Assembly: GCA_947625915.1 (NCBI GenBank)
Contig: CANQPX010000008.1
Span: forward strand, 1 to 55,876
Direction of reading: 5' to 3'
Source of the DNA: an uncultured Clostridia bacterium
GTDB lineage: Bacteria > Bacillota > Clostridia > Oscillospirales > Ruminococcaceae
DNA length: 55,876 nt
Shown: in pieces, positions 2,985-54,275 of the stretch
Layout of the letters: each line of letters opens with the position of its first letter
How positions within the stretch are numbered: position 1 is the stretch's first letter
Notes under the pieces: generated by a model
Told to the model about the DNA's origin: nothing
The model's database searches: none
What the model saw: only the letters and a program-made list of their open reading frames with translations
Translations under genes and position numbers: made by a program

Positions 2985-3352
2985 CTTGTCGATAAGGCAT
3001 AATATAGTTTGTTGTCAAACAATTGATGGTTTTATAGAAAAACAAATTGCTCTGTATTGCAAAACAGCTCACCGGGCTGTTTTGCAAGGCATAAATTATA
3101 ATAACCGTTAATGCCAAGGGGAACGCTCTCTCTTGCAGAGCGTTCCCCTCTTGCCGCTTACAGCGGAAACGACGCTTGCGTCGTTTTATTCACACCCTTT
3201 GCAGAGGCGCCTTCGTAAGGGGGGATTTCGTCGTCTGCGGACGACGACAAGGGGTTTCACCCCTCGACCCCGCCGGCGCGGCTGCGCCGGACCAGCTTTT
3301 CAATTTTGCGCTGCGCGCAAAATTGTTAAAAACTTTTTCGACAGACTGTTAA
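2985..3352 (+). repeat. Dispersed structured repeat family 1, copy A
   Basis: No gene is evident here. The stretch is one of five copies (others near 40044-40390, 40415-40705, 46130-46430, 54000-54275) of a hairpin-rich element. In order it shows a 12-bp stem TTGCAAAACAGC/GCTGTTTTGCAA (3057-3087), a stem GGGGAACGCTCT/AGAGCGTTCCCC, a short GCCGCT/AGCGG stem, an extra hairpin AAACGACG/CGTCGTTT seen only in this copy, CGTCGTC/GACGACG, GGGGTTTCACCCC, CCGGCGC/GCGCCGG and finally CAATTTTGCGC/GCGCAAAATTG. Stems are kept while their letters change between copies. Confidence 0.85.
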
Positions 3353-3417
3353 TATACCGTCCTTAACTGCAAACAATACCGTTGTTTGCAGCGCATTTAT
3401 CGGAAGGAGCTTTGAAA

Positions 3418-4500
3418 ATGGATGATCTGACCACACCCGCACCAATGCAGGTAAGCGTTGTCCCGAGCCCGGAAGAACGTACCGCTATCCGCAAAAAATA
3501 CAGCCTTACCGCTATAGTTCTTATTGTAAATACATTCCTGTTCAATTTTCTCGGCGGAGTCGTTCCGACTTTGATATTTGCCGCCGTGGGCGGAGGCTTT
3601 TCCGAAGAAGCACTTGCCGCGGGAAGACAAGCTATCGTTGAACATGAAGTCATCTTAACGCTTTTGTCCGTTCTTCCGCCGATAATAAGCGAAGTCACTT
3701 CAATACTTCTGGGAATAAAATTTTTCGGCATAGACTTCAAGCGGCTCGTTTCAAACCGCGACGGCTACGGCAGCGGAACTATAATAAAGCTTATAACGCT
3801 TTCTCTCGGATTGCAGCTTGCGGCGGGAGTTGCCGCCGCGATACTGCAAATGATATTCGCCTTTTTTGGTATGGAAAGCCCCACGCCCGATCTTTCGGGA
3901 ACAAATTCATTTGCCGCAAACCTTATACTTAGTTTTTATGCCTGCCTGCTCGGTCCTGTACTGGAAGAATTTTTGTACCGCGGCGTCGTATTGCAGTCCA
4001 TGCGCAAATACAACGAGCGCTTTGCAATATTCCTTTCCGCCGCGATATTCGGACTCATGCACCAGAACTATCAGCAGTTCATTCTGGGATTTTTGCTCGG
4101 CATACCTCTTGCGGCGGTAACATTAAAATATAATTCGCTCATACCGTCGATATTCACGCATATTTTTGTAAATATTTCCGGTATGCTCACAACATATATC
4201 CTGCAATATTTCTGCCCCGAATATTATGAAGCGATCATATCCGGAGCCGTGTCCGACGATATTTCTTTCGGAACATCGAAAATGCTTGTGATACTGATAA
4301 TAGGAGCAGTCCGCATAGCCTTTGCCGCCGCAGGTCTTGTGGTGGGAATAGTCGCTCTTGCCAAGGGCAGGAACATGAAACGCCCCACTCCCGCCGGAAA
4401 GTCCCGCGCTTTCCCGATAATAGTCCGCTCGGTGCCTTGGTGGATAGTTATGGCAGCATATGTTTATCTTGCCTTTTTTGAACCGTTCATAACCGCCTGA
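3418..4500 (+). CDS. CPBP-family intramembrane metalloprotease (Rce1/Abi-like)
   Basis: A 360-residue polytopic membrane protein. The three CPBP motifs are intact: EEFLYRG at residues 183-189 (metal-binding Glu pair and Arg), FGLMH with H215, and HIFVN with H248 and N252. Family members cleave CAAX-like or other membrane substrates, or act in bacteriocin immunity; nothing here names the substrate. AAGGAG sits eight bases before the chosen ATG; an earlier in-frame ATG at 3382 has no such site and would add a non-helical extension. The leader emerges directly from family-1 copy A. A proline-rich segment is followed by a last hydrophobic helix at the C-terminus. Confidence 0.88.
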   Translation: MDDLTTPAPMQVSVVPSPEERTAIRKKYSLTAIVLIVNTFLFNFLGGVVPTLIFAAVGGGFSEEALAAGRQAIVEHEVILTLLSVLPPIISEVTSILLGIKFFGIDFKRLVSNRDGYGSGTIIKLITLSLGLQLAAGVAAAILQMIFAFFGMESPTPDLSGTNSFAANLILSFYACLLGPVLEEFLYRGVVLQSMRKYNERFAIFLSAAIFGLMHQNYQQFILGFLLGIPLAAVTLKYNSLIPSIFTHIFVNISGMLTTYILQYFCPEYYEAIISGAVSDDISFGTSKMLVILIIGAVRIAFAAAGLVVGIVALAKGRNMKRPTPAGKSRAFPIIVRSVPWWIVMAAYVYLAFFEPFITA

Positions 4501-4582
4501 ATTTTGCTCCTGATGTTCATAAAAACTTTTTATTATGACGTATTATTCAAAAAAAATTCAGTGAATTCGGTAAAATAACATA

Positions 4583-4610
4583 TTGCAATTATTTTTATTT
4601 GTGGTATAAT
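4583..4610 (+). promoter_or_regulatory. Sigma-A promoter of the epimerase gene
   Basis: TTGCAA (4583-4588), 16-base spacer, TATAAT (4605-4610), about 45 bases before the ATG. Confidence 0.75.
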
Positions 4611-4655
4611 AGTATGTGTATGACAAAATTATAATAGAATGGAGGGACGGCGGAT

Positions 4656-5600
4656 ATGAAAACTGTTTTTGTAACAGGTGCGTCCGGTCTTATCGGAAGT
4701 GAACTTTCCGAAGCTTTGCTTTCAAAAGGTTTCAGTGTTATAGGTGTGGATAATACTCCCAATACTAACGTTGATAACCCCAACTATACTTTTGTGCAGG
4801 CATCTATCGACAATAAAGACGCCATCACTCAGGCTATGATAAACGGCATAGATGTTCTTATCCACCTCGGCTGTACCGTGGATAATGACTTCCCTAACAT
4901 AATCACTCCCGCAGAGGAAAAAAAGTCCGCTGCTGTGGATAAGTTCCTTTTTAAAGCTGCCGTTGCGGCAGGCGTAAATGACATGATAATGGTCAGCACC
5001 CATCAGGTGTATGCTCCGCAGAAAACAAGAGAACCTATCAGGGAAACTTCTGTCGAAAAGCCCGCTACCGCTTACGGAAAGCTTAAATACGACAGTGAAA
5101 AGGCTCTTTCCAAAGCCGTAAAATCTGCGGCTTCCGTTAAAGGCGTCATCGCAAGGGTCTGCCCGATATATACAAAATCCTATGCTCCCAATCTCCATGC
5201 AAGGATATACGATCCGAAGGACAATTGCTCCTACATATACGGATATGGAGATTACGGCTTCTCGTTCTGCTGTCTGTATAACCTTATAGATTTTATCGTC
5301 GGCATACTCAATGCTGCACCGGGCATAAACTATCAGGGGATTTACAATGTTTGCGATACGAAGCCTATCCTTGCGAAGGATATCGTTGATTTTGAAAGAC
5401 AGTACCACAAGCTTGGTGCGGTCATCCAGAGAAATTACGGAGCAGACGCGGTAAAATCCGCGATCGCGTTCGGTTCAAAGAGCGCAAAGACGGATTACAG
5501 GTACAATGATATAAGCACCGTATGCAGCAACATTTCCTATGACAACACCAAAGCGCAGAGGATTTCCACATTCCGCTGGAAACTTTCAAACACAAAGTAA
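4656..5600 (+). CDS. NAD-dependent epimerase/dehydratase (extended SDR)
   Basis: A 314-residue extended short-chain dehydrogenase. The Rossmann motif GASGLIGSE (about residues 8-16) binds NAD(P), followed by VIGVDN; the active-site Ser/Thr region is MVSTHQVYAP and the Tyr-Lys pair lies in AYGKLKYDSEK. Such proteins act on nucleotide sugars or related substrates. The C-terminal substrate region is not distinctive enough for a specific assignment. Stands alone with its own promoter and a downstream terminator; GGAGGG precedes the ATG. Confidence 0.85.
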   Translation: MKTVFVTGASGLIGSELSEALLSKGFSVIGVDNTPNTNVDNPNYTFVQASIDNKDAITQAMINGIDVLIHLGCTVDNDFPNIITPAEEKKSAAVDKFLFKAAVAAGVNDMIMVSTHQVYAPQKTREPIRETSVEKPATAYGKLKYDSEKALSKAVKSAASVKGVIARVCPIYTKSYAPNLHARIYDPKDNCSYIYGYGDYGFSFCCLYNLIDFIVGILNAAPGINYQGIYNVCDTKPILAKDIVDFERQYHKLGAVIQRNYGADAVKSAIAFGSKSAKTDYRYNDISTVCSNISYDNTKAQRISTFRWKLSNTK

Positions 5601-5615
5601 AGTAAAAAAATGATA

Positions 5616-5682
5616 AAAATATCCGTCCGACATCGGGCGGATATTTTAGTTTGACGAAGCCCGCTCCTTTCGGAACGGGCTT
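5616..5682. terminator. Two back-to-back bidirectional terminator hairpins
   Basis: Hairpin one (5616-5647) has a 13-14 bp stem AAAATATCCGTCCG against CGGGCGGATATTTT. Hairpin two (5657-5682) pairs AAGCCCG with CGGGCTT and is followed by CTTTTT on the plus strand. Together they separate the convergent epimerase and EF-G-like genes. Confidence 0.8.
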
Positions 5683-5693
5683 ACTCTTTTTAA

Positions 5694-9832: not shown

Positions 9833-9834
9833 GC

Positions 9835-19530: not shown

Positions 19531-19561
19531 GGTGATCCCTCACTTTCTTATAGTTTTAAGG

Positions 19562-20775
19562 GTTGAGAGTTGAGAGTTAAGATACTGACGGGGTTCTTTA
19601 GTTTGCTTTTCTTATCTTTTATTTTGTTTATAAACCTCTTTTGGAGTTTTCGGGGGACAGAACCTTCCGGGAATGGGAAACCCGAGCATGGGTGGGTGGG
19701 GCGGTCGGCGGGGTTCTTTAGTTTGCTTTTCTTGATTTTTTATTTTGTTTATAACCTTTTTTGCCATTTCTTGCGAGGGGCAGACAACCATAAGGGAAGG
19801 CGTGGGGTGGGTGGGGGACGGCGGCGGGGGTTCTTTAGTTTGCTGTTTTTATCTTTTTGTTTATCTTGTAACCCTTTTTGCCTATTCGTGCGAGGGGCAG
19901 ACAACCATAAGGGACGGGGAAACCCGAGCGCGGGGGCTTTTAAGAACGCTGTTCTTATCCTTTATTTTGTTTAAATCTCTTAGTTTTATGTTTCGGGGGA
20001 CAGAACCTTCCGGGAAGGGCGAACCCGAGAAATTAACAGGGACGCTCGCACGGGTTCTCCCTTCCCCTGCGGTTCTGTCCCCCGAGCCCCCTACTCCCTA
20101 ACCCTATCCCTCTCCACGCTCGCTATGTTCGGAGTTGAAAAAAATAGAAGAAAAAACTTAGCGTTCTTGAACATAGAAAGCGTTGGCTACGGGTTCTTTG
20201 GTTTTGCTTATCTTAGTACGAGCGTTCTACTGTTAGATGAAAATTAAAGAAGAATAAGCGTTCTAAACAATAGTTTTTCTTTTTGCGGAGTCCTTTCCCG
20301 TTTAGAACTCTATAATTGTTGAATATCAAACTAACAGTAGAACTCTCTTACTAAGATAAACAAAACTAAGGGTTCCTGTTGATATCACAAACCGTGTCAT
20401 AGAGTACAAAGATAATTCTTCTATAATATCAACCTTTTCGGTAGCGAGCGTGGAAGGGGAAAGGTTGAAGGAAAGTGGGGATGCACGAAAACTGACGCAA
20501 GCGTCAGCTGGAGAAAAACTAAGGGAAGGGGAAAACCGTGCGAGCGCCCATAGGGGCGGTCGGGTTTCCCCTTCCCTTATGGTTGTCTGCCCCTCGCAAG
20601 GTTGGCAAAATGAAATTTTTACTATGCTTTTAATAGAAAAGAAAACTCCGTCATTGTTACATTTGCCCATAAAATAAAACTAAGAAATTTAAACAAAACA
20701 AAATCTAAGAACAGAACGCTTAAAAACCCCCCGCCGGCAACTCCACTCTCCACTCTCCACTCTCCACTCTCAAAA
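19562..20775. repeat. Family-2 palindromic repeat element, copy i
   Basis: About 1.2 kb without a plausible gene between the zinc-ribbon gene and accC. Left and right halves are inverted versions of one another around about 20270. Each half carries a long hairpin, e.g. GGGGGACAGAACC...GGTTCTGTCCCCC (from about 20001 to 20083) on the left and CTAAGGGAAGGGG...CCCCTTCCCTTA on the right. Shared landmarks are CCCTATCCCTCTCCACGCTC, GATGAAAATTAAAGAAGAA and CTTATCTTAGTACGAGCG. The left end is repeated in tandem (19590-19940). The GAGAGTTGAGAGTTAAG short repeat borders it on the left and a CCACTCTCCACTCT tract on the right. Confidence 0.8.
19590..19940 (+). repeat. Tandem copies of the family-2 left end
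   Basis: The end sequence GGGTTCTTTAGTTTGCTTTT begins at about 19591, 19711 and 19828, with a diverged fourth copy near 19934, giving periods of 120, 117 and about 106 bases. Each unit runs from this T-rich end through a G-rich half-hairpin to AAACCCGAG or a diverged form. Confidence 0.8.
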
Positions 20776-22204: not shown

Positions 22205-23030
22205 CAGTGTGGAGTGTTGAGAGTTGAGAGTTAAGATACTGACGGGGTTTTTTATTTTGCTTTTCTTATATTTTCGTTTATCTTATAACCCTTTTTGCCT
22301 GATCTTTCGGGGGGATGACACTTCAGGAAAGGGCGAACCCGAACGCGCCCAAAGGCGCTCGCCGGGTTCTCCCTTTCCCTGCGTTTCTCCCCCCGAGCCC
22401 CTCTTTTCCTAACCCTATCCCTCTCCACGCTCGCTATGCTAAAGTTGATATTATAGAAGAAAAAACTTAGCGTTCTTGAACATGGAAAGCGTTGGCTACG
22501 GGTTCTTTAGTTTAGCTTATCTTAGTACGAGCGCACTACTATTAGATGAAAATTAAAGAAGAATAAGCGTTCTAATCGGGAGAGGACTCCGCAAAAAGAA
22601 ATTTTATTGTTTAGAACTCTATAATTGTTGAATATTAAACTAACAGTAGAACTCTCTTACCAAGATAAACAAAACTAACGGTTCCTGTTGACTTCACAAA
22701 TTTCGTTATAGAAATCTAAAAAATTTTTTCTATAATATCAACCTTTTTGGGAGCAAGCGTGGAGAGGGATAGGGTTGGGGAGTGGGGGGCTCGGGGGGCA
22801 GAACCGCAGGGGAAGGGAGAACCCGTGCGAGCGTCCCTGTTAATTTCTCGGGTTCGCCCTTCCCGGAAGGTTCTGCCCCCCGAAACATAAAACTAAGAAA
22901 TTTTTACTATTGCTTTTTAAGAAAAGCAAACTTCGCCCATTTTACATTTGCCCCGAAAACTCAAAAAAAGGTTATAAACAAAATAAAAAGATAAGAAAAG
23001 CAACCTTTTGCCAAGCTTTTCATAGAAAAG
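22205..23030. repeat. Family-2 palindromic repeat element, copy ii
   Basis: An 800-base gene-free stretch between fabZ and accC. Left arm from about 22240 (T-rich end, hairpin GGGGGGATGAC.../...TCTCCCCCC), centre near 22610, right arm as inverted homologue ending with CTTTTCATAGAAAAG at 23018-23032. Both arms contain CCTAACCCTATCCCTCTCC or its complement and a TTGATATTATAGAA segment. The right-arm hairpin pairs GGGGGGCAGAACC with GGTTCTGCCCCCC (about 22794-22880). The centre has no TA locus. Confidence 0.8.
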
Positions 23031-29004: not shown

Positions 29005-29984
29005 AAAGCTTGCAAAAGTCTTTTCGTGACTTATGCGAGGGTTCTTTATTTTGCTTTTCTTATCTTTTATTTTACTTAAATTTCTTAGTTTTTATCTTTC
29101 GGGGGGTAGACCCTTTAGGGAAGGGAGAACCCGAACGCGCCCTTAGGCGCTCGCACGGTTAAAAATCAAAACGCTTCGCGTTTTGATCTCCCTTCCCCGC
29201 GGTTTGCCCCCGTAAATGACGCTTGCGTCATTTTGCCCCGACGTTCCCCAACCCTATCCCTCTCCGCGCTCGCTATGTTCGGAGTTGAAATTATAGAAAA
29301 GGTTCTTTAGAACTCTTGAACATAGATGGAAAAATCAACGCAAGCCCTTAGAACTCTTATCTTTACAGCTGCGTTCTAAACATAGACTATAAGGGACGCA
29401 AAAAAGAGTTCTAAACAGTTGAAAAAACAAAAAATTTAAAAAAACTATTGACTTTTACAGAGCACTTGTGTTATAATATAAAAAAGGAACACACCGATGA
29501 ACGGCTGCTCCCCTTATTGGTTTAGTTTTAAAAAAACCGCCGCAACTTTGGAAGGGCGGGGCGGTTATATTGCATTGACTTACTTTTTTCTATTTGCAAT
29601 AGAATATGTAAGCGAGATAACATTAACTAAAAGTAGGAAAAGAGTTCTAAACGATTGTTTAGGACTCTTTTTCTTCTTTAATTTTCATCTGATAGTAGAA
29701 CGCTCGTACTAAGATAAGAGTTCTAAGGGGCATCGTTGACTCAATGATCTAAGTTATAGAGTTCTAAAGAGTCTTTTCCATAAAATCAACTTTAGGATAG
29801 CGAGCGCGGAAGGGGAAGGGTTGAAGGAAAATGGGGAGCGCGAGGGGAGAAAACCTAAGGGAAGGGGAAAACCGTGCGAGCGTCCTTGTTGGACGCTCGG
29901 GTTTCCCCTTCCCTTATGGTTGTCTGCCCCTCGCATGAATTGGCAAAAAAGGTTATAAGATAAACAAAAAATAAGAAAAGAGAA
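28990..29984. repeat. Family-2 palindromic repeat element, copy iii, with a TA remnant at its centre
   Basis: A 1-kb element. Left end CTTTTCTATGAAAAGCTTG overlaps the fumarase stop; the left arm hairpin begins at GGGGGGTAGACCC (about 29100); nested small hairpins ATCAAAACGC/GCGTTTTGAT and AATGACGC/GCGTCATT follow. The right arm (29690-29984) is the inverted counterpart, with the hairpin ACCTAAGGGAAGGGG/CCCCTTCCCTTA. It ends one base before the stop codon of the minus-strand gene at 29985. The centre (about 29440-29680) holds a broken type I TA locus. Confidence 0.8.
29453..29640. pseudogene. Remnant of a type I toxin-antitoxin locus
   Basis: Plus strand: TTGACT (29449-29454), 18 bases, TATAAT, then GGAACACACCGATGAACGGC, a close copy of the antitoxin RNA start at 33418. 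A terminator-like stem with GGGCGGGGCGGTT follows. Minus strand: the last part of the toxin gene is recognisable (GTTAATGTTATCTCGCTTAC... giving VNVISLTYSI-like residues and a final RKK stop), but the toxin start, ribosome site and promoter are missing. So the locus is 5'-truncated on the toxin side. A 71-codon plus-strand reading frame here (from 29497) runs into repeat sequence and is probably not real. Confidence 0.65.
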
Positions 29985-30206
29985 CTACTCCGCATATTTG
30001 CTCAGATCGTCCCAGTCAATATCTTCTTCCGGAATGAAACCGCTTTGCTCGGCTCTGTCTATGCGTTCACGCTCTGCGGGGGTAACTTTTGTAAAATCCG
30101 GATCCCATGCAAGCACGAACCGCTTCAATGTTTCATATGCCAAGTCCTGTTCTTCCTCAGGGAGCATTTCGTATAAATTAATCATCTGCTGTGTCTTTGG
30201 TGACAT
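29985..30206 (-). CDS. Orphan antitoxin-like protein
   Basis: A 73-residue acidic protein (MSPKTQQMINLYEMLPEEEQ...DFTKVTPAERERIDRAEQSG...EEDIDWDDLSKYAE). The helix followed by DPDFTKVTPAE and a C-terminal DIDWDDLSKYA is what I know from antitoxins paired with RelE/YoeB-like toxins in clostridia. Here no toxin gene follows: the stop codon abuts the end of family-2 copy iii, so a downstream toxin may have been displaced. Strong AAAGGAGGG ribosome site. Confidence 0.65.
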   Translation of the reverse strand: MSPKTQQMINLYEMLPEEEQDLAYETLKRFVLAWDPDFTKVTPAERERIDRAEQSGFIPEEDIDWDDLSKYAE

Positions 30207-30249
30207 AAAAACCCTCCTTTACTTATAAATATCTCCTCGCGAACCTATG

Positions 30250-30545
30250 TCAATAATTATCTTTCGGGGGGTAGACCCTTTAGGGAAGGGAGAACCCGAA
30301 CGCGCCCTTAGGCGCTCGCCGGTTTCTCCCTTCCCCTGCGGTTCTGCCCCCCGTGCCCCCCTTTCCCCAACCCTATCCCTCTCCGCGCTCGCTATGTTCG
30401 GAGTTGAAATTATAGCAGAAATAACATAGCGTTCTTGAACGGGGAAAGCATTGGCTACGGGTTCCTTGGTTTGGCTTATCTTAGTACGAGCGTTCTAATA
30501 TTAGATGAAAATTAAAGAAGAATAGAACTATAAACAGTGTTAAAA
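30250..30545 (+). repeat. Family-2 left arm of copy iv
   Basis: Hairpin from GGGGGGTAGACCC to GGTTCTGCCCCCC (about 30262-30352), CCCTATCCCTCTCCGCGCTC, and GATGAAAATTAAAGAAGAA at the inner end. Nearly identical to the left arm of copy iii. Its inverted partner is 3.3 kb away at 33845-34215. Confidence 0.75.
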
Positions 30546-32679: not shown

Positions 32680-32902
32680 TGTACACTTAGTACAAACTTT
32701 AGATAAAATTTTATTGAAGTATGCACAGTTTTCAACAAATCGCAGGATAAAAATGGAAAATGGCGTGCGCCGGCTGTTACCGTTTGGACATTTTTGTAAT
32801 TGTTTTGTAAACTTTAGCGCTTTTCGGAAAAAGCTTGGCAAAAGGCTTGACGTACGGGGGGGCTCTAAGAACGCTGTTCTTAACTTTTATTTTGTGAAAA
32901 TC

Positions 32903-32931
32903 TTGAAATTTTATATATTATATGATATAAT
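32903..32931 (+). promoter_or_regulatory. Promoter of the 46-residue gene
   Basis: TTGAAA (32903-32908), 17 bases, TATAAT (32926-32931). Just upstream (32855-32895) is a relic of a family-2 end, CTAAGAACGCTGTTCTTA, also seen at 19941. Confidence 0.75.
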
Positions 32932-32975
32932 AATATCAAGAGATAAACCTCAACGCCAAAGAAAGGGTGATTTTT

Positions 32976-33116
32976 ATGACTATGCAAGAAATAACTCGTC
33001 TTATTATCGGTTTAAGGACAGCAGGCTGGACAGAAAAAGAAATAAACGATCTTATGCTTTACATCGAAAGCGGCGAGGACAAATATTTGCCGCGAAAAAA
33101 TGATAAAGAAGAATAA
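32976..33116 (+). CDS. 46-residue conserved-looking small protein
   Basis: Encodes MTMQEITRLIIGLRTAGWTE, then KEINDLMLYIESGEDKY and a basic/acidic tail LPRKNDKEE. The pattern 'LR-AGW-E-EIND-ILYIESGE' is one I recognise from short uncharacterised Firmicutes proteins; it would form two helices joined at GWTE. AAAGGG lies about nine bases before the ATG and a good promoter precedes it, so it is probably expressed. It sits between two pieces of family-2 repeat. Function unknown. Confidence 0.7.
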   Translation: MTMQEITRLIIGLRTAGWTEKEINDLMLYIESGEDKYLPRKNDKEE

Positions 33117-33117
33117 A

Positions 33118-33212
33118 CGTGAGCGCGGGGGTTCTTTAGTTTGCTTATCTTAGTACGAGCGTTCTACTATTAGATGAAAATTAAAGAAGAAAAAGAGTTC
33201 TAAACGATCGTT
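33118..33212 (+). repeat. Inner half-arm of family 2
   Basis: GGGGTTCTTTAGTTTGCTTA, CTTAGTACGAGCGTTCTACT and GATGAAAATTAAAGAAGAA in the order seen near 20188-20260, but lacking the long G-rich hairpin. Its inverted partner begins at 33868. Confidence 0.75.
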
Positions 33213-33379
33213 TAGGACTCTTTTCCCGAACAAATTTTTATCTTGCCGTGTGCGATGTAATTCAAGTTTTTCAAAACTGCAATAAAAACAAAAAACACCC
33301 GCTAAACACAACAATATCATTATATCATGCCATAAAAGGTATGTCAATAGTTTTGAAAAAAATTTTGCCGAAAAAACTA

Positions 33380-33408
33380 TTGACATGATCCTTGCAGTGT
33401 GGTATAAT
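33380..33408 (+). promoter_or_regulatory. Perfect promoter of the second antitoxin RNA
   Basis: TTGACA (33380-33385), 17 bases, TATAAT (33403-33408). Confidence 0.85.
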
Positions 33409-33414
33409 ATAAAA

Positions 33415-33505
33415 AAAGGAACACACCGATGAACGGCTGCTCTCCTTTTGTGATTGATTAAATAAATAACCGCCTACTTTTGGAAGAGCGGGGCGGTTAT
33501 GTTGC
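33415..33505 (+). ncRNA. Predicted antitoxin RNA of the second type I TA locus
   Basis: Predicted transcript starting near GGAACACACC (33418-33427) and ending at the hairpin AATAACCGCC/GGGCGGTTAT (33466-33500), which also terminates the convergent toxin mRNA. Contains TTTTGTGATTGATTA (33446-33460), a near-copy of the plus-strand sequence at 33586-33602 over the toxin start codon, so the RNA can pair with the toxin start. The RNA opens only a ten-codon frame (MNGCSPFVID). Confidence 0.65.
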
Positions 33506-33513
33506 AATCGACA

Positions 33514-33600
33514 TTACTTTTTTCTATGTGTGATAGAATAGGTAAGCGAAATGACATTTACCAAGAGGTCTAATAATAACAAAATTTCAGTGATTGTCAT
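33514..33600 (-). CDS. Hydrophobic type I toxin-like (holin-like) peptide, 28 aa
   Basis: Encodes MTITEILLLLDLLVNVISLT followed by YSITHRKK: a single membrane helix with a basic tail, the layout of Fst and of peptides often annotated 'putative holin-like toxin'. AAAGGGGG is ten bases before the ATG, and a perfect promoter stands at 33677-33705. Its mRNA begins with the same GGAACACACC as the opposing RNA. Convergent with, and overlapping the terminator of, the RNA at 33415. Too short for routine detection; a truncated relative is at 29560-29640. Confidence 0.78.
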   Translation of the reverse strand: MTITEILLLLDLLVNVISLTYSITHRKK

Positions 33601-33676
33601 TAGTCATCATCCCCCTTTCTTATGTTATAGTGAAAGGGGAGCTCAAGCCGTCCACCGTTTGGTGTGTTCCAAAATT

Positions 33677-33705
33677 ATTATACCATGTTTGTCGAAAAAT
33701 GTCAA
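33677..33705 (-). promoter_or_regulatory. Perfect promoter of the second type I toxin
   Basis: Minus-strand TTGACA (33700-33705), 17 bases, TATAAT (33677-33682). Confidence 0.85.
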
Positions 33706-33844
33706 CGCTTTTTTCGGCAAAATTTTTTTCAAAACTATTGACATAACTTTTACGGCATGATATAATAATGTTGTGTTCAATTGTAGTTTTGAAAAACTTG
33801 AATTACATTACACACGGCAAGATAAAAATTTGTTCGGGAAAAGA

Positions 33845-34215
33845 GTTCTAAACTTATTGTTTAGGACTCTTTTTCTTCTTTAATTTTCATCTGACAGTAG
33901 AACGCTCGTACTAAGATAAGCTAAACTAAAGAACCCGTAGCCATTGCGATCCCCGTTCAAGATCAACTATGTTATTTCTGCTATATTTTCAACTCCGAGC
34001 ATAGCGAGCGCGGAGAGGGTTAGGGTTGGGGAGTGTCGGGGCAAAATGACGCAAGCGTCATTTACGGGGGCAAACCGCGGGGAAGGGAAATCAAAACGCG
34101 TAGCGTTTTGATTTTTAACCCAGTGCGAGCGCCTAAGGGCGCGTTCGGGTTTCCCCTTCCCTTATGGTTGTCTTCCCCTCGCATGATAGGGCAAAAAGGG
34201 TTACAAGCAAAATAA
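33845..34215 (-). repeat. Family-2 right arm of copy iv
   Basis: Inverted partner of 30250-30545 and 33118-33212: TTCTTTAATTTTCATCTG, CGAGCGCGGAGAGGG, nested hairpins AATGACGC/GCGTCATT and ATCAAAACGC/GCGTTTTGAT, then CGGGTTTCCCCTTCCCTTAT and the A-rich end. It ends about 15 bases before the stop of the gene at 34233. Reverse-complemented, it closely matches the left arm of copy iii. Confidence 0.78.
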
Positions 34216-34232
34216 AAGATAAAAGTTACAAA

Positions 34233-35642
34233 CTACGCCCGCCGCACCGTTTCCGAGAGTGATAACCCAAGAAGAAGCCAAAAGTACGGCGCAACAGTCA
34301 CCGCACTTGCCCCGAACCACGCTTGCACACTGTATGCCGAAACTGCCGCCAGTAACGCGGGTATGTACCATTCCTCACCATTCGCGTAAAACCGCTTTAT
34401 GCTCCGTATCAGCCTGTATATGACTATGCCTATCAGCAGTATGTATACCGCTGACGCCGGCACGCCTCGCGTCGCCGCTGTGTATAGGTATTCGTTGTAA
34501 CTGCGGTCAATGCTGTCGATCATGAGCTCTTCGCTCTCCAACTGCTTCTTCGCCATGAGATCTTCCCCGATCCCGAGGATAGGCGAGTCTTTTATCATGG
34601 TAACGCTCCGCTCTCTGCCGATCTCCCAGAGCGATTTCTCGTTCACCGGCGACGGCGAACCTACTATGTATAACCTGTTGAACGCGTCCGAGTAGGCGAT
34701 GGCTTTATCCCGCAGGTATATACCCTGTGCAGCAAAAACTATCCCGAATATCGCCGCTAAGCCCAATATTACTGCGCATATACGCTTCTTGGAGGAATTG
34801 AGCAAGCCCGAGCGGTATTTTTTCCCGTTTTTGTTGAAAATTTCTATTACGAGTACCACTGCAACGTCCGCGCCTATCCCGATAAGCGGTATCACTGACG
34901 ATGTGAACAGTCCTGTTAAAAAGAAGAGCATTGCCGCTGCTCCGTATATCCGCGCGATCTTGGGGTCTTCTTCCCAGACTGCGCCCGCTATTGCGATGCC
35001 GCTGACGATGGTAAGGAAAGTTCCGTAAAAGATCGGGCTGTCAGACAAGCCGCTGGAAAGATTTACGTTCTTTAACAGCAGTATTGCGGGAAGTTTCCTG
35101 AAATCCGACGGGAAATCCCACGGGATATGCTGCATTACAGCTATGATCGCCTGCATTATCCCCGAGCATACAAGTATGAAGAATATTTTTTTTACCGTTT
35201 CACGGCTCGGCGCGCAGGTCGCAAGCAGAAATATCCCGAAATATGCTATTATCGAAAGCAAACCTTCGTATCTTCCCGTTTCGCCGAGGAGCGCGGTGTT
35301 GATGTATTCTTGGGAACTTTCCGTCAGCACGACTCTGTAATACGACGCGAACGCAAGCAGTGCCATTGCAATTGCCAAAAACGCCGCGGGGGAATTTTTC
35401 AGTTTTATATCTTTCCTCAACAGCAGAACTATGTAGAAAAGTATGCAGGAAAATCCCGCCGCGTACAAAAACGATCCCATGAAAGCGTTGGCTTTTTCCA
35501 CCGCCGTTATCACCGCTCCGCCTATGAACAGGATAACTATGCAGCCGTACAGCAAACCGTTTATCCATTTTTCAACGGTCGTTTTATTCATATTGAGTAT
35601 GAAATTTGACTTTTCCGTTGTTCCGAATATGGTCTTTGGCAT
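34233..35642 (-). CDS. O-antigen ligase/polymerase-like membrane protein
   Basis: 469 residues with about ten to twelve hydrophobic helices and a large loop after about residue 300 (LRDKAIAYSDAFNRLYIVGS...SLWEIGRERSVTMIKDSPIL), the arrangement of the Wzy/WaaL O-antigen ligase superfamily; IGRERSVTMIKDSPILGIG resembles the conserved R-x-x-x-W/M...P-x-x-G-x-G loop of that family. In Gram-positives such proteins polymerise or attach surface polysaccharide. The ATG at 35642 follows GGAGG. No sugar genes adjoin it. Confidence 0.75.
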   Translation of the reverse strand: MPKTIFGTTEKSNFILNMNKTTVEKWINGLLYGCIVILFIGGAVITAVEKANAFMGSFLYAAGFSCILFYIVLLLRKDIKLKNSPAAFLAIAMALLAFASYYRVVLTESSQEYINTALLGETGRYEGLLSIIAYFGIFLLATCAPSRETVKKIFFILVCSGIMQAIIAVMQHIPWDFPSDFRKLPAILLLKNVNLSSGLSDSPIFYGTFLTIVSGIAIAGAVWEEDPKIARIYGAAAMLFFLTGLFTSSVIPLIGIGADVAVVLVIEIFNKNGKKYRSGLLNSSKKRICAVILGLAAIFGIVFAAQGIYLRDKAIAYSDAFNRLYIVGSPSPVNEKSLWEIGRERSVTMIKDSPILGIGEDLMAKKQLESEELMIDSIDRSYNEYLYTAATRGVPASAVYILLIGIVIYRLIRSIKRFYANGEEWYIPALLAAVSAYSVQAWFGASAVTVAPYFWLLLGLSLSETVRRA

Positions 35643-40027: not shown

Positions 40028-40043
40028 TTTGGCGTAACAGCAT

Positions 40044-40390
40044 TAACAATTTTGCGCGCAGCGCAAAATTGAACAAAAAGTTCGCCAGCCTTTCAAGGCT
40101 GCGGGGTCGAGGGGCGGAGCCCTCGTCGCGCTCCGCAGAGCGCGAAATTCCCCATACGAAGGCGCCTCTGCAAAGGGGTGAATTGCCGCTGAAAGCGGCA
40201 AGAGGGGAACGCTCTGCAAGAGAGAGCGTTCCCCTTGGCATTAACGGTTGTTGCAATTTAAGCTTTGCCAAACAGCCCGGTGAGCTGTTTGGCAATACAG
40301 AACATTTTGTTTTTCTAAAAAATATTCTGTTGTTTGTCAAAAACTATAATTATGCTTTATCGATAAGCTGAAAACGGGGCTTTTTAAACC
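40044..40390 (-). repeat. Family-1 structured repeat, copy B
   Basis: Minus-strand copy of the alpha subtype, homologous to copies A and D over its full length, including the 5' segment CAGCTTATCGATAAAGCATA that copy A shares. Stems read TTGCCAAACAGC/GCTGTTTGGCAA, GGGGAACGCTCT/AGAGCGTTCCCC, TTGCCGCT/AGCGGCAA, CGCGCTC/GAGCGCG and GCAGCC/GGCTG. Begins 17 bases after thrS. Confidence 0.85.
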
Positions 40391-40414
40391 CCGTTTCAGT
40401 CTGTAGAAAAAATT

Positions 40415-40705
40415 ACAAAGAATAGTATAGTTTGTTGTCAAACAACTCACAGGGTTGTTTGACAAGGTAAAATTTGAAAAAATTTGTTAGTTCAAGGGGG
40501 AAGCCCTCTATCGCAGGGCTTCCCCCTCTTGCTGTCTACGACAGCAATTCACCCCCTGCGGAGCTCCTAAAGGCATTAGGGAATTTCGCCGTCTGCGGAC
40601 GGCGACCAAAGGCTCTGCCTTTGGAAACCGCCAGCGCGGCTGCGCTGGACCAGCTTTTAAATTTTGCGCTGCGCGCAAAATTGTTAAAAACTTTTTCGAT
40701 AAACA
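40415..40705 (+). repeat. Family-1 structured repeat, copy C
   Basis: Plus-strand copy of the beta subtype, head to head with copy B. Stems: TTGTCAAACAAC/GTTGTTTGACAA, AGGGGGAAGCCCT/AGGGCTTCCCCCT, TTGCTGTC/GACAGCAA, CGCCGTC/GACGGCG, AAAGG/CCTTT, CCAGCGC/GCGCTGG, CAATTTTGCGC-type end hairpin. A GCGGGCGGCA/TGCCGCCCGC hairpin with T-run follows at 40711-40745 and probably terminates the convergent wall-protein gene region. Confidence 0.85.
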
Positions 40706-40756
40706 GGAGCGGGCGGCAAATCTGCCGCCCGCTCGCTTTTTTCTCTCTCTCTTTTC

Positions 40757-46064: not shown

Positions 46065-46129
46065 AAATATAAAGTTTATTGCCTCCGCAATTTTATCTTC
46101 ATCAATAGAAAATATCCGCGCATTATTCG

Positions 46130-46430
46130 GACTGCCAAAAACGAAAAACAAATTGCTCTGTATTGCCAAACAACTCACAGGGTTGTTTGGCAAGGCTTAG
46201 ATCACAATTACCGTTAATGCCAAGGGGAACGCTCTCTCTTGCAGAGCGTTCCCCTCTTGCCGCTTTCAGCGGCAATTCACCCCTTTGCAGAGGCGCCTTC
46301 GTATGGGGAATTTCGCGCTCTGCGGAGCGCGACGAGGGCTCCGCCCCTCGACCCCGCCAGCGCGGCTGCGCTGGATCAGCTTTTCAATTTTGCGCTGCGC
46401 GCAAAATTGTTAAAACTTTTTCGACAAGAT
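46130..46430 (+). repeat. Family-1 structured repeat, copy D
   Basis: Alpha subtype, plus strand, between the ABC operon and cysS (convergent). Stems: TTGCCAAACAAC/GTTGTTTGGCAA, GGGGAACGCTCT/AGAGCGTTCCCC, TTGCCGCT/AGCGGCAA, CGCGCTC/GAGCGCG, GAGGG/CCCTC, CCAGCGC/GCGCTGG, CAATTTTGCGC/GCGCAAAATTG. Confidence 0.85.
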
Positions 46431-46457
46431 GAGCCGTTGTCCGACAACGAACATTTA

Positions 46458-49051: not shown

Positions 49052-49915
49052 ATGAGCCGAGATGAACAAACGATGCTTTCCCCGAAGCTTGATATAGTTT
49101 TTAAAATGCTTTTCGGGAATGAGAAAAACAAAGATATTCTGAAAGCGTTTCTTTCGGATATGCTTGACATTCCGGAAGAGGAAATGCGCGATATAAAAGT
49201 TAAGAACCCCGAGATCGAGCCGGAGAGCGTTGATGAAAAGTTTTACAGGCTTGATCTGAATATTGATATCGGCGGTCAGCTTGTAAATGTTGAAATGCAA
49301 GTCAGAGCGGAGAAGTTCTTTCCTGACAGAACGCTTCTCTATTGGTCGAAGCTGTATTCTTCCCAACTTGATGAGGGAGAACCTTACAGTAAGCTGTGTC
49401 CTTGTATATCTATCAACATATTGGATTTTGTTCTTTTCGGGGAACACGAAGACATACATTCGGAATTTTCCGTTTGGGACGTTGAACATAAGAAAAAGCT
49501 TTCTGACAAAATGCAGATACATTTCTTTGAACTGAAAAAAGTAAAAGGCGGAATAGATAAGGGAGACAGGAAGAAACTTTGGTTACAATTCATCAGATCC
49601 ACGAAGAAGGAGGAGTTCGAGATGTTGAAACAAGCAGAAGTTCCTGCGATTTCCAAAGCTATAGATGGGCTTTATGTGATGAACGATAACGATAGATTGA
49701 AAGAACTTGCAAGAATGAGAGAAAAAGCCATGCACGACAGAGCTTCCGAACTCGAAGAAGCTATCCTGACCGGCATGGAAAGGGGTATTGCCAAGGGCAG
49801 AGCAGAGGGCGAAGCCAAGGGCAGAGCAGAAAGAGACAATGAGATCTTCGCTAAGATGAAAGCATTCGGCTTGTCTGACAGCGATATAAAGAAAATTTTT
49901 AATATTAAAAGTTAA
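49052..49915 (+). CDS. Rpn-family PD-(D/E)XK nuclease/transposase (copy 1)
   Basis: 287 residues. The N-terminal nuclease domain begins MLSPKLDIVFKMLFG and has the PD-(D/E)XK core in LDLNIDIGGQLVNVEMQVR (Asp, then ExQ). The C-terminal part is helical (DRLKELARMREKAMHDR) and ends in short GIAKGRAEG-type repeats and KMKAFGLSDSDIKKIFNI. E. coli RpnA-E are nucleases that promote recA-independent recombination and affect phage growth. GGGAGG precedes the ATG at 49052. About 90 percent identical to the copy at 54927 over the nuclease domain. Contains an internal start at 49622. Confidence 0.88.
   Translation: MSRDEQTMLSPKLDIVFKMLFGNEKNKDILKAFLSDMLDIPEEEMRDIKVKNPEIEPESVDEKFYRLDLNIDIGGQLVNVEMQVRAEKFFPDRTLLYWSKLYSSQLDEGEPYSKLCPCISINILDFVLFGEHEDIHSEFSVWDVEHKKKLSDKMQIHFFELKKVKGGIDKGDRKKLWLQFIRSTKKEEFEMLKQAEVPAISKAIDGLYVMNDNDRLKELARMREKAMHDRASELEEAILTGMERGIAKGRAEGEAKGRAERDNEIFAKMKAFGLSDSDIKKIFNIKS
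49622..49915 (+). CDS. Putative intragenic short form of Rpn (97 aa)
   Basis: Inside copy 1, in the same frame, GGAGG (49609-49613) stands eight bases before ATG (codon 191), giving MLKQAEVPAISKAIDGLYVM onward to the common stop. The ribosome site is encoded by the KKEEF codons. E. coli RpnA makes such a short C-terminal form from an internal start that restrains the long form; the same is inferred here. The strongest support is that the separate gene at 49927 starts at exactly this place. Confidence 0.55.
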   Translation: MLKQAEVPAISKAIDGLYVMNDNDRLKELARMREKAMHDRASELEEAILTGMERGIAKGRAEGEAKGRAERDNEIFAKMKAFGLSDSDIKKIFNIKS

Positions 49916-49926
49916 ATGAGGAATTC

Positions 49927-50223
49927 ATGATGTTGAAACAAGCAGAAGTTCCTGCAATTTCAAAGGCAATAGACGGGCTTTATGTTATGAACGATAATGA
50001 TAGATTGAAAGAACTTGCAAGAATGCGCGAAAAAGCCATGCACGACAGGGCTTCCGAACTCGAAGAAGCTATCCTGACGGGCATGGAGAGAGGCAGAGCA
50101 GAAGGCGAAGCCAAGGGCAGAGCAGAAGGCGCAGCAAAAAAGGAAGCTGAAATGCTTGATAAGATGAAAGCATTCGGCTTATCCGACAGCGATATAAAGA
50201 AAATTTTTAATATTAAAAGTTAA
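49927..50223 (+). CDS. Free-standing copy of the Rpn C-terminal short form (98 aa)
   Basis: 98 residues, MMLKQAEVPAISKAIDGLYV..., nearly identical to codons 191-287 of the Rpn gene just upstream except in the GRAEGEAKGRAEGAAKKEAE repeat. The DNA duplication begins at the equivalent of the internal ribosome site (GAGGAATTCATGATG against GAGGAGTTCGAGATG) and ends at the same stop, so the duplicated unit is just the putative short gene with its ribosome site. It lacks the nuclease core. Probably co-transcribed with copy 1 and ended by the terminator at 50251. Confidence 0.8.
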   Translation: MMLKQAEVPAISKAIDGLYVMNDNDRLKELARMREKAMHDRASELEEAILTGMERGRAEGEAKGRAEGAAKKEAEMLDKMKAFGLSDSDIKKIFNIKS

Positions 50224-50247
50224 ATAAGGAGTTCAAGATGATAAAAG
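50224..50247 (+). pseudogene. Third, nearly deleted unit of the Rpn tandem duplication
   Basis: After the stop at 50223, the junction sequence AATAAGGAGTTCAAGATGAT repeats the start region once more (ribosome site, spacing, ATG) but runs into the terminator after eight codons (MIKEKPRL). Confidence 0.6.
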
Positions 50248-50250
50248 AAA

Positions 50251-50273
50251 AACCCCGCCTTTAAGGCGGGGTT
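50251..50273. terminator. Bidirectional terminator
   Basis: AACCCCGCC/GGCGGGGTT with a five-base loop; T-rich on both sides (GTTTTTC on plus, TTTTTCTTTT on minus). Serves the Rpn array and the convergent secreted-protein gene. Confidence 0.9.
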
Positions 50274-50297
50274 CATGTTTTTCATTTTATCGGGATC

Positions 50298-51014: not shown

Positions 51015-51073
51015 TGTTATTTCCTCCAATACATTTTTTAACAGAATTGTTCTGCTAATTATTTATATTACTT

Positions 51074-51102
51074 ATTATATCATTATTTCTCGTATTTAAC
51101 AA
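51074..51102 (-). promoter_or_regulatory. Promoter of the secreted-protein gene
   Basis: TTGTTA (51097-51102), 17 bases, TATAAT (51074-51079). Confidence 0.7.
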
Positions 51103-51240
51103 CATATTTTTTTAATAATAATTATTGCAATTTTTTGTTTATTATGGCAAAACAAAAGGATTTTTTTGTATATTTTTTCAAAATGCGGTAACATTTCAGT
51201 TCATTTTTTGTTTTGAAGTATTATTGTTACAAAATATGTG

Positions 51241-51269
51241 TTGCAATTCCCGAAAAAATATGCTATTAT
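51241..51269 (+). promoter_or_regulatory. Promoter of valS
   Basis: TTGCAA (51241-51246), 17 bases, TATTAT (51264-51269). The leader is only about 35 bases, so there is no T-box. Confidence 0.7.
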
Positions 51270-51308
51270 AAATTGTATGCCTATTTTCTATCGAAAGGAA
51301 CGGTAAAA

Positions 51309-53930
51309 ATGAAGAAAGAACTTTCAAAACTCTATGAACCTAAGGAAGTTGAGGATAAAATATATAAGTTCTGGGTGGATAACGACTGCTTCAAAGCTGA
51401 GCGCGACCCCCAAAAAACTCCCTATACTATAGTTATTCCCCCGCCGAATATCACAGGTCAGCTCCATATGGGTCATGCCCTTGACGAGACTTTGCAGGAT
51501 ATCCTTATCCGCTGGAAACGTATGAAAGGCTATGCCGCCCTCTGGCTGCCCGGAACGGATCATGCCGCTATCGCGACAGAAGCAAAGATAGTTGCCGCTA
51601 TGGCAAAAGAGGGTCTCACCAAGGAGTCCATAGGACGTGAAAAGTTCATGGAGCGTGCTTGGGAATGGAAAAAACAGTACGGCGGACGTATCGTTGAACA
51701 GCTGAAAAAATTAGGCAGTTCCTGCGACTGGTCAAGAGAACGTTTCACCATGGACGAGGGCTGTTCCAAAGCCGTTAAGGAAGTTTTTGTAAAATATTAC
51801 GAGAAAGGTCTTATCTACCGCGGCGAAAGGATCATCAATTGGTGTCCCCACTGTAAAACTTCCCTTTCCGATGCGGAAGTTACTTTCGAGGAACAGGCAG
51901 GACATTTCTGGCATTTGCGTTACCCGTTCAAGGACGGCAGCGGTTATGTTGAACTTGCCACGACCCGTCCCGAAACTATGCTGGGCGATACTGCCGTTGC
52001 GGTAAACCCCAACGATGACCGTTACAAGGATATTGTGGGCAAAACTCTCATACTTCCCCTTGTGGGCAGGGAAATTCCCGTTATTGCTGATGATTATGTT
52101 GAACCGGATTTCGGAACGGGCGTTGTTAAAATTACACCCGCTCACGACCCCAACGACTTTGAAGTCGGTCTCCGTCACAATTTGCCCGTACTCAACGTCA
52201 TGACGGACGACGCGCATATAGTTGACGATTACCCCGAATATGCGGGAATGGATCGCTACGAAGCAAGAAAGAAGATAGTTGAAGATCTGGAAAAGGGCGG
52301 CTATCTTGTCAAGATCGAGGAACACGTTCACAATGTGGGTACTTGCTACCGCTGCGGAACTACCGTTGAACCGAAAGTTTCAACACAGTGGTTCGTAAAG
52401 ATGAAGCCTCTTGCGCAGCCTGCGATCGACGCAGTTAAAAACGGCGAAACAAAGTTCGTTCCCGAACGTTTTGAAAAAGTATATTTCCATTGGCTGGAAA
52501 ATATCCGCGACTGGTGCATTTCCCGCCAGATCTGGTGGGGACATCAGATACCTGCTTTCTACTGCGACGACTGCGGCGAAATGGTCGTTACCAAGGAAAA
52601 CAGTGCAGTTTGTCCCAAATGCGGAAAACCCATGCGCCAAGATCCCGATACACTGGATACATGGTTCAGTTCGGCGTTATGGCCTTTCTCGACGCTCGGC
52701 TGGCCCGACAATACCGAAGATCTGAAATATTTTTATCCGACAAATACACTTGTCACGGGATATGATATAATTTTCTTCTGGGTAATAAGAATGATGTTCA
52801 GCGGTCTTGAAAATATGGGAAAAGCGCCGTTCGATACCGTTCTTATCCACGGACTTGTCCGCGACGCACAGGGACGGAAAATGTCCAAATCCCTCGGCAA
52901 CGGCATTGACCCGCTGGAAGAGATAGAAAAATACGGCGCGGACGCTCTCCGCTTCATGCTTGCAACAGGCAACGCTCCCGGAAACGATATGCGTTACACC
53001 GATGAAAAAGTAAAAGCTTCACGAAACTTTGCAAACAAGTTATGGAACGCTTCACGTTATGTTCTGATGAATTTGCCGGAAGATTTCAAATTCGGCGGAC
53101 TTCCCGAAGAACTCAATATCGAGGATAAATGGATATTGAGCAGCTTTAACAGACTTGCCAAGGAAGTAAACGAAAATCTTGAAAGCTTTGAACTCGGCGT
53201 TGCCGTAGCAAAACTTTACGATTTTATCTGGGACGTTTACTGTGACTGGTATATAGAACTTACAAAGCCGAGGATCGCGGCAGGCGGAAAGACCGCCGAG
53301 ACTGCGCAGGACGTTCTGGTATTCGTTTTACAGGGAATGTTGAAACTCCTGCACCCGTTCATGCCGTTCATTACGGAGGAAATATGGTCCGCCGTTTCGG
53401 AGGACGATGTTCCGTGCATACTTTCAAAGTTCCCAGAATATGACGAAAAACTCAATTTTGAAACGGAAGAAAAGCAGTTCGGAAAGATAATAGAAGCTAT
53501 CAAGGGCATAAGGAACCGCCGTTCGGAAATGAACGTTCCGCCTTCAAAGAAAGCTGCCGTTCATATCGAGACTGCCGAAGCGGAGATCTTTGAACAGGGA
53601 AGAATGTTCTTTGAACGTCTTGCGTCTGCATCGGAAGTTGAGATCGCGGCAAAGGTGAATGTTCCCGATGCGGTAACGGTAGTTACAGACAGCGCAAGGA
53701 TATTCATTCCTATGGACGAACTTGTAGATAAAGATAAGGAACTTGCCCGCCTTAATAAGGAAAAAGCGGCAGTTCAAAAGGATATTGATTTTTCTTCCGG
53801 AAAGCTGAACAATCAAGGATTTATTTCCAAAGCGCCCGCGCAGCAGGTCGAAGCGGAAAAAGCAAAACTTGCCAAGGCGCAGGAAAAGATGGCAAAGATA
53901 GAACAGTCCATAGCGGCACTTACAAAATAA
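51309..53930 (+). CDS. valS: Valyl-tRNA synthetase
   Basis: 873 residues. HIGH motif as HMGH in [22 protein letters not shown] in [14 protein letters not shown], editing domain with [15 protein letters not shown], and a C-terminal coiled coil ([20 protein letters not shown]). The ATG at 51309 is taken because AAAGGAA precedes it and [15 protein letters not shown] is the normal beginning. Confidence 0.97.
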
Positions 53931-53999
53931 TCACGGCGGCAAGCTTACTGCTTGCCGCTCAGTCTGTAAAAAACTAAAAACAGGCGCGGACAAAATAAA

Positions 54000-54275
54000 A
54001 AGCGAAAAACAAAACTTTGCCCGAAAAGCTGGTCGAGCTGAGCCCAGCTCGCGGGGTCGAGGGGCGGAGCCCTCGTCGCGCTCCGCAGAGCGCGAAATCC
54101 CCTAATGCCTTTAGGAGCTCCGCAGGGGGTGAATTGCTGTCGCAGACAGCAAGAGGGGGAAGCCCTGCGATAGAGGGCTTCCCCCTTAAACTAACAAATT
54201 ATTTCTATTTTTCCCTTGTCAAACAACCCTGTGAGTTGTTTGACAATGAACTATACTATTTTCGACAGTCTGAGC
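54000..54275 (-). repeat. Family-1 structured repeat, copy E
   Basis: Minus-strand beta subtype. Stems (minus strand): TTGTCAAACAAC/GTTGTTTGACAA, GGGGGAAGCCCT/AGGGCTTCCCCC, TTGCTGTC/GACAGCAA, CGCGCTC/GAGCGCG, GAGGG/CCCTC and CGAGCTG/CAGCTCG. The terminal CAATTTTGCGC hairpin of other copies is replaced here by GCTTTTCGGGCAAAG. Its head lies about 30 bases before the phosphatase gene. Confidence 0.82.

Follow-up and report, generated by a model that had tools for sequence, protein, structure and literature searches.

Family 1, a Dispersed Array of DNA Palindromes, Is Probably a MITE of the IS1182 Type with Intrinsic Terminators as Its Targets

In the 55,876 nucleotides of DNA analysed here, referred to as the window, a repeat that folds into about eight hairpins (Family 1) is found five times, and the stems of these hairpins differ between copies by paired substitutions. 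Are such stems kept by selection on a folded RNA, or is Family 1 a mobile DNA element whose palindromes are maintained in another way? The first-pass annotation of the window had left room for both and had proposed that selection acts on the pairing and not on the letters. The answer that we favor, with a probability of about 0.84, is that Family 1 is a non-autonomous MITE of the IS1182 type that enters intrinsic terminators and whose stems are kept mainly by arm rewriting, in which one arm of a stem is replaced by the complement of the other.

The five copies in the window could all be verified at the places where they had been annotated, together with their common ordered set of hairpins, the paired changes in the stems and the stem sequences that had been quoted. 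Copy A (2982–3348, plus strand) is a full element whose terminal inverted repeats are both present (2982–2997 and 3333–3348), and it is flanked by the target duplication TTAATATAC on the left (2973–2981) and on the right (3349–3357). Copies B and C lie head to head around a stem-loop at 40372–40396 that is presumed to be an intrinsic terminator. Copy B (about 40030–40371, minus strand) is downstream of thrS and has its left end repeat at about 40356–40371, the other end being degenerate; copy C (40397–40706, plus strand) is a full element. Copy D (about 46129–46431, plus strand) has degenerate end repeats, so that its limits, as those of copy B, were set by eye. Copy E (53960–54272, minus strand) is a full element downstream of valS with an alternative 3′ module. 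It adjoins a stem-loop at 53936–53959, presumably the valS terminator, and the 3′ arm of this stem-loop recurs at the opposite end of the copy (54273–54284).

Copy D served as the reference for module coordinates, all on the plus strand. The stems of H1 (46163–46193) and H2 (46224–46254) are 12 bp in length, that of H3 (46257–46275) is 8 bp, and that of H5 (46313–46332) is 7–8 bp. These are followed by H6 (46333–46350), H7 (46357–46374, 7-bp stem) and H8 (46385–46409, 11-bp stem), and in many copies H8 is replaced by another 3′ module. Copy A carries an additional mini-hairpin (3167–3187, plus strand), an insertion next to H3 that only a minority of copies have.

Family 1 is present in about 100 copies of roughly 300 bases in its own genome, a 2.1-Mb draft of a Ruminococcus-like bacterium. 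The ThrRS of this genome has its nearest match at 98% identity, and its matches are MAGs of uncultured Clostridia, Oscillospiraceae and Ruminococcus. At least 105 places in this genome match, some of which are recognized by the 22-base H8 pattern alone, and at least 99 matches cover 120 or more profile positions. Both ends are visible in only 41 of the 99 own copies, and two-ended copies are 300–412 nucleotides long. Matches were also found in 18 of 20 genus relatives. An exact DNA pattern search of genome contigs, which may leave out near records, returned no match. As had been noted for the five copies, no reading frame is conserved: none is open in all copies, and the best frame has a stop-free run of at least 70 codons in 50 of 78. 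The window and seven other loci likewise gave no Rfam match at the gathering score.

The ends of Family 1 connect it to a transposon family. Its terminal inverted repeats match those of an IS1182-family element of the same genus (L121) and those of IS loci of other genera (L205–L207). In one genus relative (G012), an IS1182 transposase was identified (NF033551, 392 bits with a cutoff of 270; PF13751; PF05598), and its locus has CAGCCTGTAGAAAAA and CAGCTTGTCGAAAAAG at its ends and lies next to a stem-loop, an arrangement also seen in Family 1. The own genome, an 89%-complete draft, yielded no IS1182 transposase. L205, L206 and L207 are three of five related IS loci from other genera with both ends readable, and each has a whole stem-loop on both sides (31, 39 and 29 nucleotides, respectively); L208 and L210 have different hairpins at their two ends. 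A five-prime-truncated retro-insertion had been considered for L042 and L046, which have no left end and have long flanking repeats, and was set aside given the 41 copies with matched inverted repeats.

Stem-loops are common at the target sites: they adjoin 36 of 66 left ends and 27 of 57 right ends, compared with 16 of 900 random intergenic points. A target duplication was found in 18 of the 41 two-ended own copies, as against 0.2% of 999 mismatched flank pairs, and in nine of the 41 the duplication spans 21–31 nucleotides and includes a stem-loop, the case of L047 being weak. The remaining duplications are 7–14 nucleotides in length and mostly at hairpin-free sites. By the score used, 23 of the 41 have no duplication, and some of these are flanked by two hairpins that resemble each other but have diverged. 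Among the relatives, six of 12 two-ended copies have a duplication, five of them of 25–37 nucleotides with a stem-loop, a count made without a shuffle control. Copies of Family 1 lie between convergent genes in 45 of 83 cases, versus 15 of 133 element-free gaps. At the gene preceding L011, which was found in 19 relatives, none of the six relatives viewed has the element, and four of the six have a single hairpin in its place; over the two genes viewed in this way Family 1 is mostly absent from the relatives viewed. These sites, the IS-like ends, the duplications and the hairpin targets together bear out the suggestion that Family 1 is a mobile palindrome-type element.

The covariation first seen among five copies was found to be strong in an alignment of 61 copies (39 own copies and 22 of the 60 matches of relatives), with the hairpins of copy D as the reference for counting pairs. 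In this alignment 96.6% of cells pair, two-sided changes occur in 28 of 57 pairs, and the covariation score is 0.331, compared with 0.130 for shuffled alignments and at most 0.067 when slid. An earlier statement that variation affects the stems but spares the linkers was withdrawn: the diversities were 0.20 for stems and 0.23 for linkers in a fixed-register pair count, and that count was itself discarded because hairpins with inserts were out of register.

For the way in which the pairs change, RNase P from the genus served as the control, a set of 16 orthologues with a predicted structure and not of dispersed repeats. The ratio of one-sided (G-U) to two-sided cells was determined to be 2:334 in helices 1–4 and 40:83 in RNase P; in such ratios the cells are not independent events. 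For all helices as aligned the ratio was 54:400, and most of these one-sided cells came from misaligned rows with an alternative H7 or 3′ module; with these modules omitted, a step decided upon after the 54:400 count had been seen, it was 5:369. A count by pairs separates Family 1 from RNase P significantly for helices 1–4 (p = 0.004) and for the cleaned set (p = 0.008) but not for all helices as aligned (13 and 28, versus 18 and 22 for RNase P; p = 0.26). One-sided intermediates are thus below an RNA-like frequency in most helices, namely in helices 1–4 and in the cleaned set, and not by pairs in the uncleaned set. As a strand test, G-T mismatches were compared with A-C mismatches; the ratio of 10:4 over both sets (p = 0.18) comes from a test of low power, in which a terminator control gave 9:6. 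The own copies alone gave 8:1 (p = 0.04), leaning to an RNA on the plus strand, and the relatives 2:3.

Changes of a different kind were found within the hairpins. In H2 of copy L068, one arm has been replaced by the complement of its partner, including an indel that changes its length; this is the only clear arm rewriting seen, and its direction was deduced. Inverted loops were found five times in the hairpins of Family 1, versus 0 and 1 in the controls. The modules also form mosaics, with 77 combinations in 85 copies, and beyond near neighbors they assort freely. The two subtypes that had been described (copies A, B and D versus C and E) hold for the 5′ half only, and further 3′ the modules assort independently. 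Several hairpin alleles are shared with the relatives. Mini-hairpins of about 20–26 nucleotides sit within hairpin loops, and one of them recurs in another repeat family of the window.

A structured noncoding RNA, possibly mobile, with stems kept by selection on RNA pairing, would agree with the strong covariation, the retention of hairpin order across species, the 8:1 mismatches of the own copies and the stable folding of the sequence. However, both strands fold about equally well (z = −9.1 and −7.9), no Rfam family matches, and one-sided changes are rarer than in RNase P under the counts that reach significance. The arm rewriting with an indel and the inverted loops also speak against selection on an RNA, and in tandem genes the orientation of Family 1 (11 same, 19 opposite; p = 0.20) has no significant bias. 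The position of the copies is accounted for by transposase targeting. We therefore regard the RNA as improbable, and the proposal that selection is on pairing finds no support in the same observations. It is hardly likely that the repeats are REP/BIME-like or terminator-like and are maintained by the host because they serve transcription termination or the stability of mRNA, their mobility being incidental. Their G+C-rich hairpins are intergenic and mostly at gene 3′ ends, but this location follows from terminator targeting, many targets already have a hairpin that is then duplicated, and relatives viewed at two genes mostly do without the element.

The mosaic of alleles would be very improbable as an assembly artifact of repeats in a draft genome. 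The assembly has 73 contigs with several copies at contig ends, but mosaics persist among the 18 copies that have a target duplication common to both flanks, with 16 combinations and, for 14 of 21 module pairs, all four gametes, and several alleles recur in relatives. Selection on the folded DNA is a more serious competitor, to which we would give somewhat less than even odds. The hairpins of a MITE would here be kept beyond mutation bias as a cruciform or single strand that acts as a transposase target, landing pad or recombination signal. The transposase family is described as targeting stem-loops (PMC5678879), copies L020, L061 and L068 adjoin H8-like hairpins, mini-hairpins have entered hairpin loops, and pairing is retained across species. 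Against this, perfect stems could persist through arm rewriting in the absence of selection (PMC8794818).

For the preferred reading, an IS1182-type MITE, we infer that Family 1 is moved by a DDE transposase of the IS1182 family, which would act in trans and recognize target stem-loops. The element would insert in intrinsic terminators at gene 3′ ends, and its location at gene ends would arise because the transposase targets terminators. Joining would probably occur at the feet of the stem-loop, and subsequent gap repair would copy the terminator hairpin on both sides. Inside the element, about eight DNA palindromes follow one another in a set order, and each has a limited number of alleles that recombination or conversion would shuffle between copies. 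The stems would remain complementary mainly through the rewriting of one arm from the other during DNA synthesis, and not through selection on RNA. Template switching is the likeliest cause of the paired stem changes and probably made most of them.

The accounts of IS1272 and the IS1182 family describe the same transposase family, 16-bp end repeats, and hairpin or terminator targets without a preference in primary sequence (PMC5678879, PMC4923244). For IS1272 and TnSha1 they report that the hairpin is replaced or partly deleted, with no target duplication (PMC5678879, PMC4923244), whereas in Family 1 the whole stem-loop is often duplicated. Replacement of this type does not describe the nine own copies, five copies of relatives and three IS loci in which the stem-loop is duplicated. 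Duplication of the whole stem-loop was given as a possible pathway for IS1272 (Fig 13, b, of PMC5678879). IS1272 encodes its own transposase and Family 1 does not.

RAYT association is a feature of REP elements. REP elements and BIMEs share with Family 1 extragenic palindromes in a mosaic arrangement, but REPs are units of 20–40 bp, while the unit of Family 1 measures about 300 bp and has the ends of a transposon (PMC3733652, PMC2817692). The MITEs BOX, RUP, SPRITE, ERIC and QMITE are similarly short, mostly intergenic, high in copy number, hairpin-forming and sometimes nested; Family 1 differs in its eight internal palindromes with nearly free allele sets, its IS1182-type ends and its stem-loop duplication (PMC10969869, PMC3049150). 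No IS1182 MITE like Family 1, and no such repeat in Ruminococcus, was found among the best-ranked open-license PMC papers. Hairpin maintenance by template switching is described as giving paired and multibase changes, arm homogenization and spacer inversion (PMC8794818, PMC8604942). These accounts concern RNA genes and coding sequences, whereas in Family 1 the process would act on a multicopy mobile element.

Family 1 provides recurring sequence evidence for duplication of a whole terminator stem-loop, an outcome that the IS1272 account proposes and does not report as observed. Since the stem-loop is duplicated, the element can settle at gene ends while the terminator is retained. There is also a warning for RNA discovery: the strong covariation of Family 1 is probably better explained by palindrome mutation, for which scarce one-sided changes are the telltale sign, and elements of this kind could be taken for candidate structured RNAs in gut metagenomes. 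A broader reading, which we regard as doubtful, is that of a self-diversifying palindrome array. The hairpins would be exchangeable cassettes, nearly independent of all but their neighbors and with several alleles common to species; the stems would be rewritten whole from the partner arm, and the mini-hairpins of 20–26 nucleotides in the loops would be the smallest mobile units. If this reading is true, Family 1 would offer a natural setting in which to study mutation templated by hairpins, and would also act as a multiplier of transcription terminators.

The five copies of the roughly 300-base, eight-hairpin element (Family 1) described in the first-pass annotation were found to be real and correctly placed: A (2982–3348, +), B (about 40030–40371, –), C (40397–40706, +), D (about 46129–46431, +), and E (53960–54272, –). 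The genome to which the window belongs as contig 8 (2.10 Mb, 73 contigs, 89% complete) contains at least 105 Family 1 places when two DNA searches, each with the best 40 candidates scored, are merged with one pattern search, and part of this number rests solely on a 22-base H8 pattern. A profile built from the window copies gave 110 matches in the window and 80 fetched stretches, and the 99 matches covering at least 120 profile positions are counted here as copies. With 60 relatives searched, matches were found in 18 of the 20 that belong to the genus and in 2 from other genera of the family. In a ThrRS search the organism falls among uncultured Clostridia, Oscillospiraceae, and Ruminococcus MAGs, the closest being 98% identical.

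Many copies start and finish with versions of CAGYYTGTCGAWAAAG. Scoring an end as present at 13 or more of 16 matching positions, the left end was found in 66, the right in 57, and both in 41 of the 99 copies. An IS1182 transposase gene in a relative of the same genus, G012 (NF033551, 392 bits against a cut-off of 270), is flanked by end repeats of the Family 1 type, adjoining a stem-loop; the ends of L120, an IS1182-like element of another relative, are unlike those of Family 1. By eye, a stem-loop adjoins one end in all seven of the G012 insertion sequence and six related loci, five of which have both ends readable. The whole stem-loop is present at both sides of L205, L206, and L207, from three other genera (31, 39, and 29 nt), and the hairpins at the two ends of L208 and L210 are unlike each other. 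A partner IS1182 transposase was looked for in the 89% complete genome of the organism itself and not found. On sequence grounds, Family 1 is probably mobilised as an IS1182-type MITE.

Among Family 1 copies, 36 of the 66 left ends have a stem-loop next to them, as do 27 of the 57 right ends; at 900 random intergenic positions the count is 16 (Fisher p = 9e-35 for the left end and 1e-25 for the right). By our own score, a target duplication was detected in 18 of the 41 two-ended copies and in 0.2% of 999 mismatched flank pairs; by the same score it is absent from the other 23. Nine duplications are 21–31 nt long with the stem-loop inside (weak in copy L047), and nine are 7–14 nt and mostly A+T-rich, that of L043 being a repeat of a hairpin arm. 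Among 12 two-ended copies in relatives, counted without a shuffled control, a stem-loop-containing stretch of 25–37 nt is repeated in five, one of them from another genus, and one copy has an 11-nt duplication. Copies L020, L061, and L068 adjoin a hairpin resembling their own H8, which suggests nested insertion or hairpin capture. Copy L030 (G000:C6:16462-17175) lies directly 3′ of the RNase P RNA gene, adjoining a stem-loop.

With genes called as simple open frames, convergent pairs flank 45 of 83 copies versus 15 of 133 element-free gaps, and divergent pairs 8 of 83 versus 39 of 133. Among tandem genes, 11 copies are oriented with and 19 against the genes (p = 0.20). Judged from form and position, the target hairpins are probably terminators. 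Sites without the element, for which the first-pass annotation had proposed a search, were found in relatives 3′ of the genes at L011 and L038. For L011 (19 relatives found, six viewed), the element is missing and one hairpin is present in four, and in the other two no element lies within the 520 nt viewed. For L038, four of five relatives have no element within the 430 nt viewed, and G005 carries its own copy. Copies B and C are located downstream of thrS, where elements of the same architecture were found nearby in two of seven relatives viewed (G019 and G001); the profile matched at 3 of 18 thrS loci searched.

In the available text of PMC5678879 and PMC4923244, IS1272 and TnSha1, which is built on IS1272, belong to the IS1182 family and target stem-loops, RNA-seq-confirmed terminators among them; the stem-loop is reported to be deleted or replaced without target duplication. 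In contrast, Family 1 and L205–L207 show duplication of the whole stem-loop, which appears as a possible pathway in PMC5678879. Literature searches covering open-licence papers turned up no account of a comparable IS1182 MITE.

The covariation proposed for the stems is borne out in 61 copies, a chosen subset (39 own and 22 from relatives): two-sided changes occur at 28 of the 57 pairs, 96.6% of cells pair, and the score is 0.331, whereas shuffling gives 0.130 and sliding the partners gives no more than 0.067. Folding is good on either strand, with z = –9.1 (+) and –7.9 (–). An Rfam scan of the window and seven other loci returned no family.

One-sided changes are scarce in helices 1–4, with 2 one-sided versus 334 two-sided cells, compared with 40 versus 83 in the RNase P RNA of 16 genus members, for which RNAalifold supplied the structure (p = 3e-23, although cells are not independent). 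By pairs, the values are 2 and 20 versus 18 and 22 (p = 0.004). All seven helices as aligned give 54 and 400 cells, and by pairs 13 and 28, not significantly different from RNase P (p = 0.26); helices 5–7 are disturbed because some rows carry an alternative H7 or 3′ module. When these rows are excluded, as decided after the first all-helix result was known, one-sided changes are again scarce (5 versus 369 cells; 4 and 25 pairs, p = 0.008). A ~55-nt extension is present in the RNase P RNA of L367 (G019) and L369 (G013) and absent from the other 14 aligned sequences. The G-T versus A-C mismatch test of strand decides nothing, since the ratio is 10:4 overall (p = 0.18), 8:1 in own copies (p = 0.04), 2:3 in relatives, and 9:6 in the terminator control.

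Of 94 aligned copies, 85 could be classed for seven modules, which occur in 77 combinations. Association is significant among H1, H2, and H3, for H5 with H6, and for H7 with H8; the remaining 16 module pairs show none in the 85 classed copies. Misassembly could be taken to produce such a mosaic, but it is an unlikely source because the 18 copies with a duplication common to both flanks still hold 16 combinations, and 14 of their 21 module pairs show all four gametes. Several alleles are common to this genome and its relatives, including TCGCGCTC, TCGCCGTC, CGAGCTG, and CCAGCGC.

The window also contains a second multi-hairpin family in direct and inverted copies (19552–20731, 22206–23000, 29038–30534, and 32857–34239). 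Inside it, at 29214 and 34044, is a 20-nt mini-hairpin, AAATGACGCTTGCGTCATTT, which with stem variants also adjoins H3 in some Family 1 copies and may be a very small mobile palindrome. Outside Family 1, longer repeats in direct orientation (300 nt, 71–92% identical) lie at 49068–50214 and 54940–55778.

In H2 of copies L011, L035, L038, and L070, a mini-hairpin lies inside the loop and the arms are mismatched. In H2 of L068, the 5′ arm is changed in length and exactly complementary to the 3′ arm, as if it had been rewritten from that arm. Five Family 1 stems were found with a loop and its reverse complement, one of which (AAA/TTT) counts as a complement too; the controls gave no reversed and one complemented loop. 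Arm homogenisation and spacer inversion are described as marks of template switching in the available text of PMC8794818 and PMC8604942. The few one-sided changes, the arm replacement in L068, and the loop inversions are our reasons, all drawn from sequence, for explaining the covariation of the Family 1 stems by a mutational mechanism, probably template switching.
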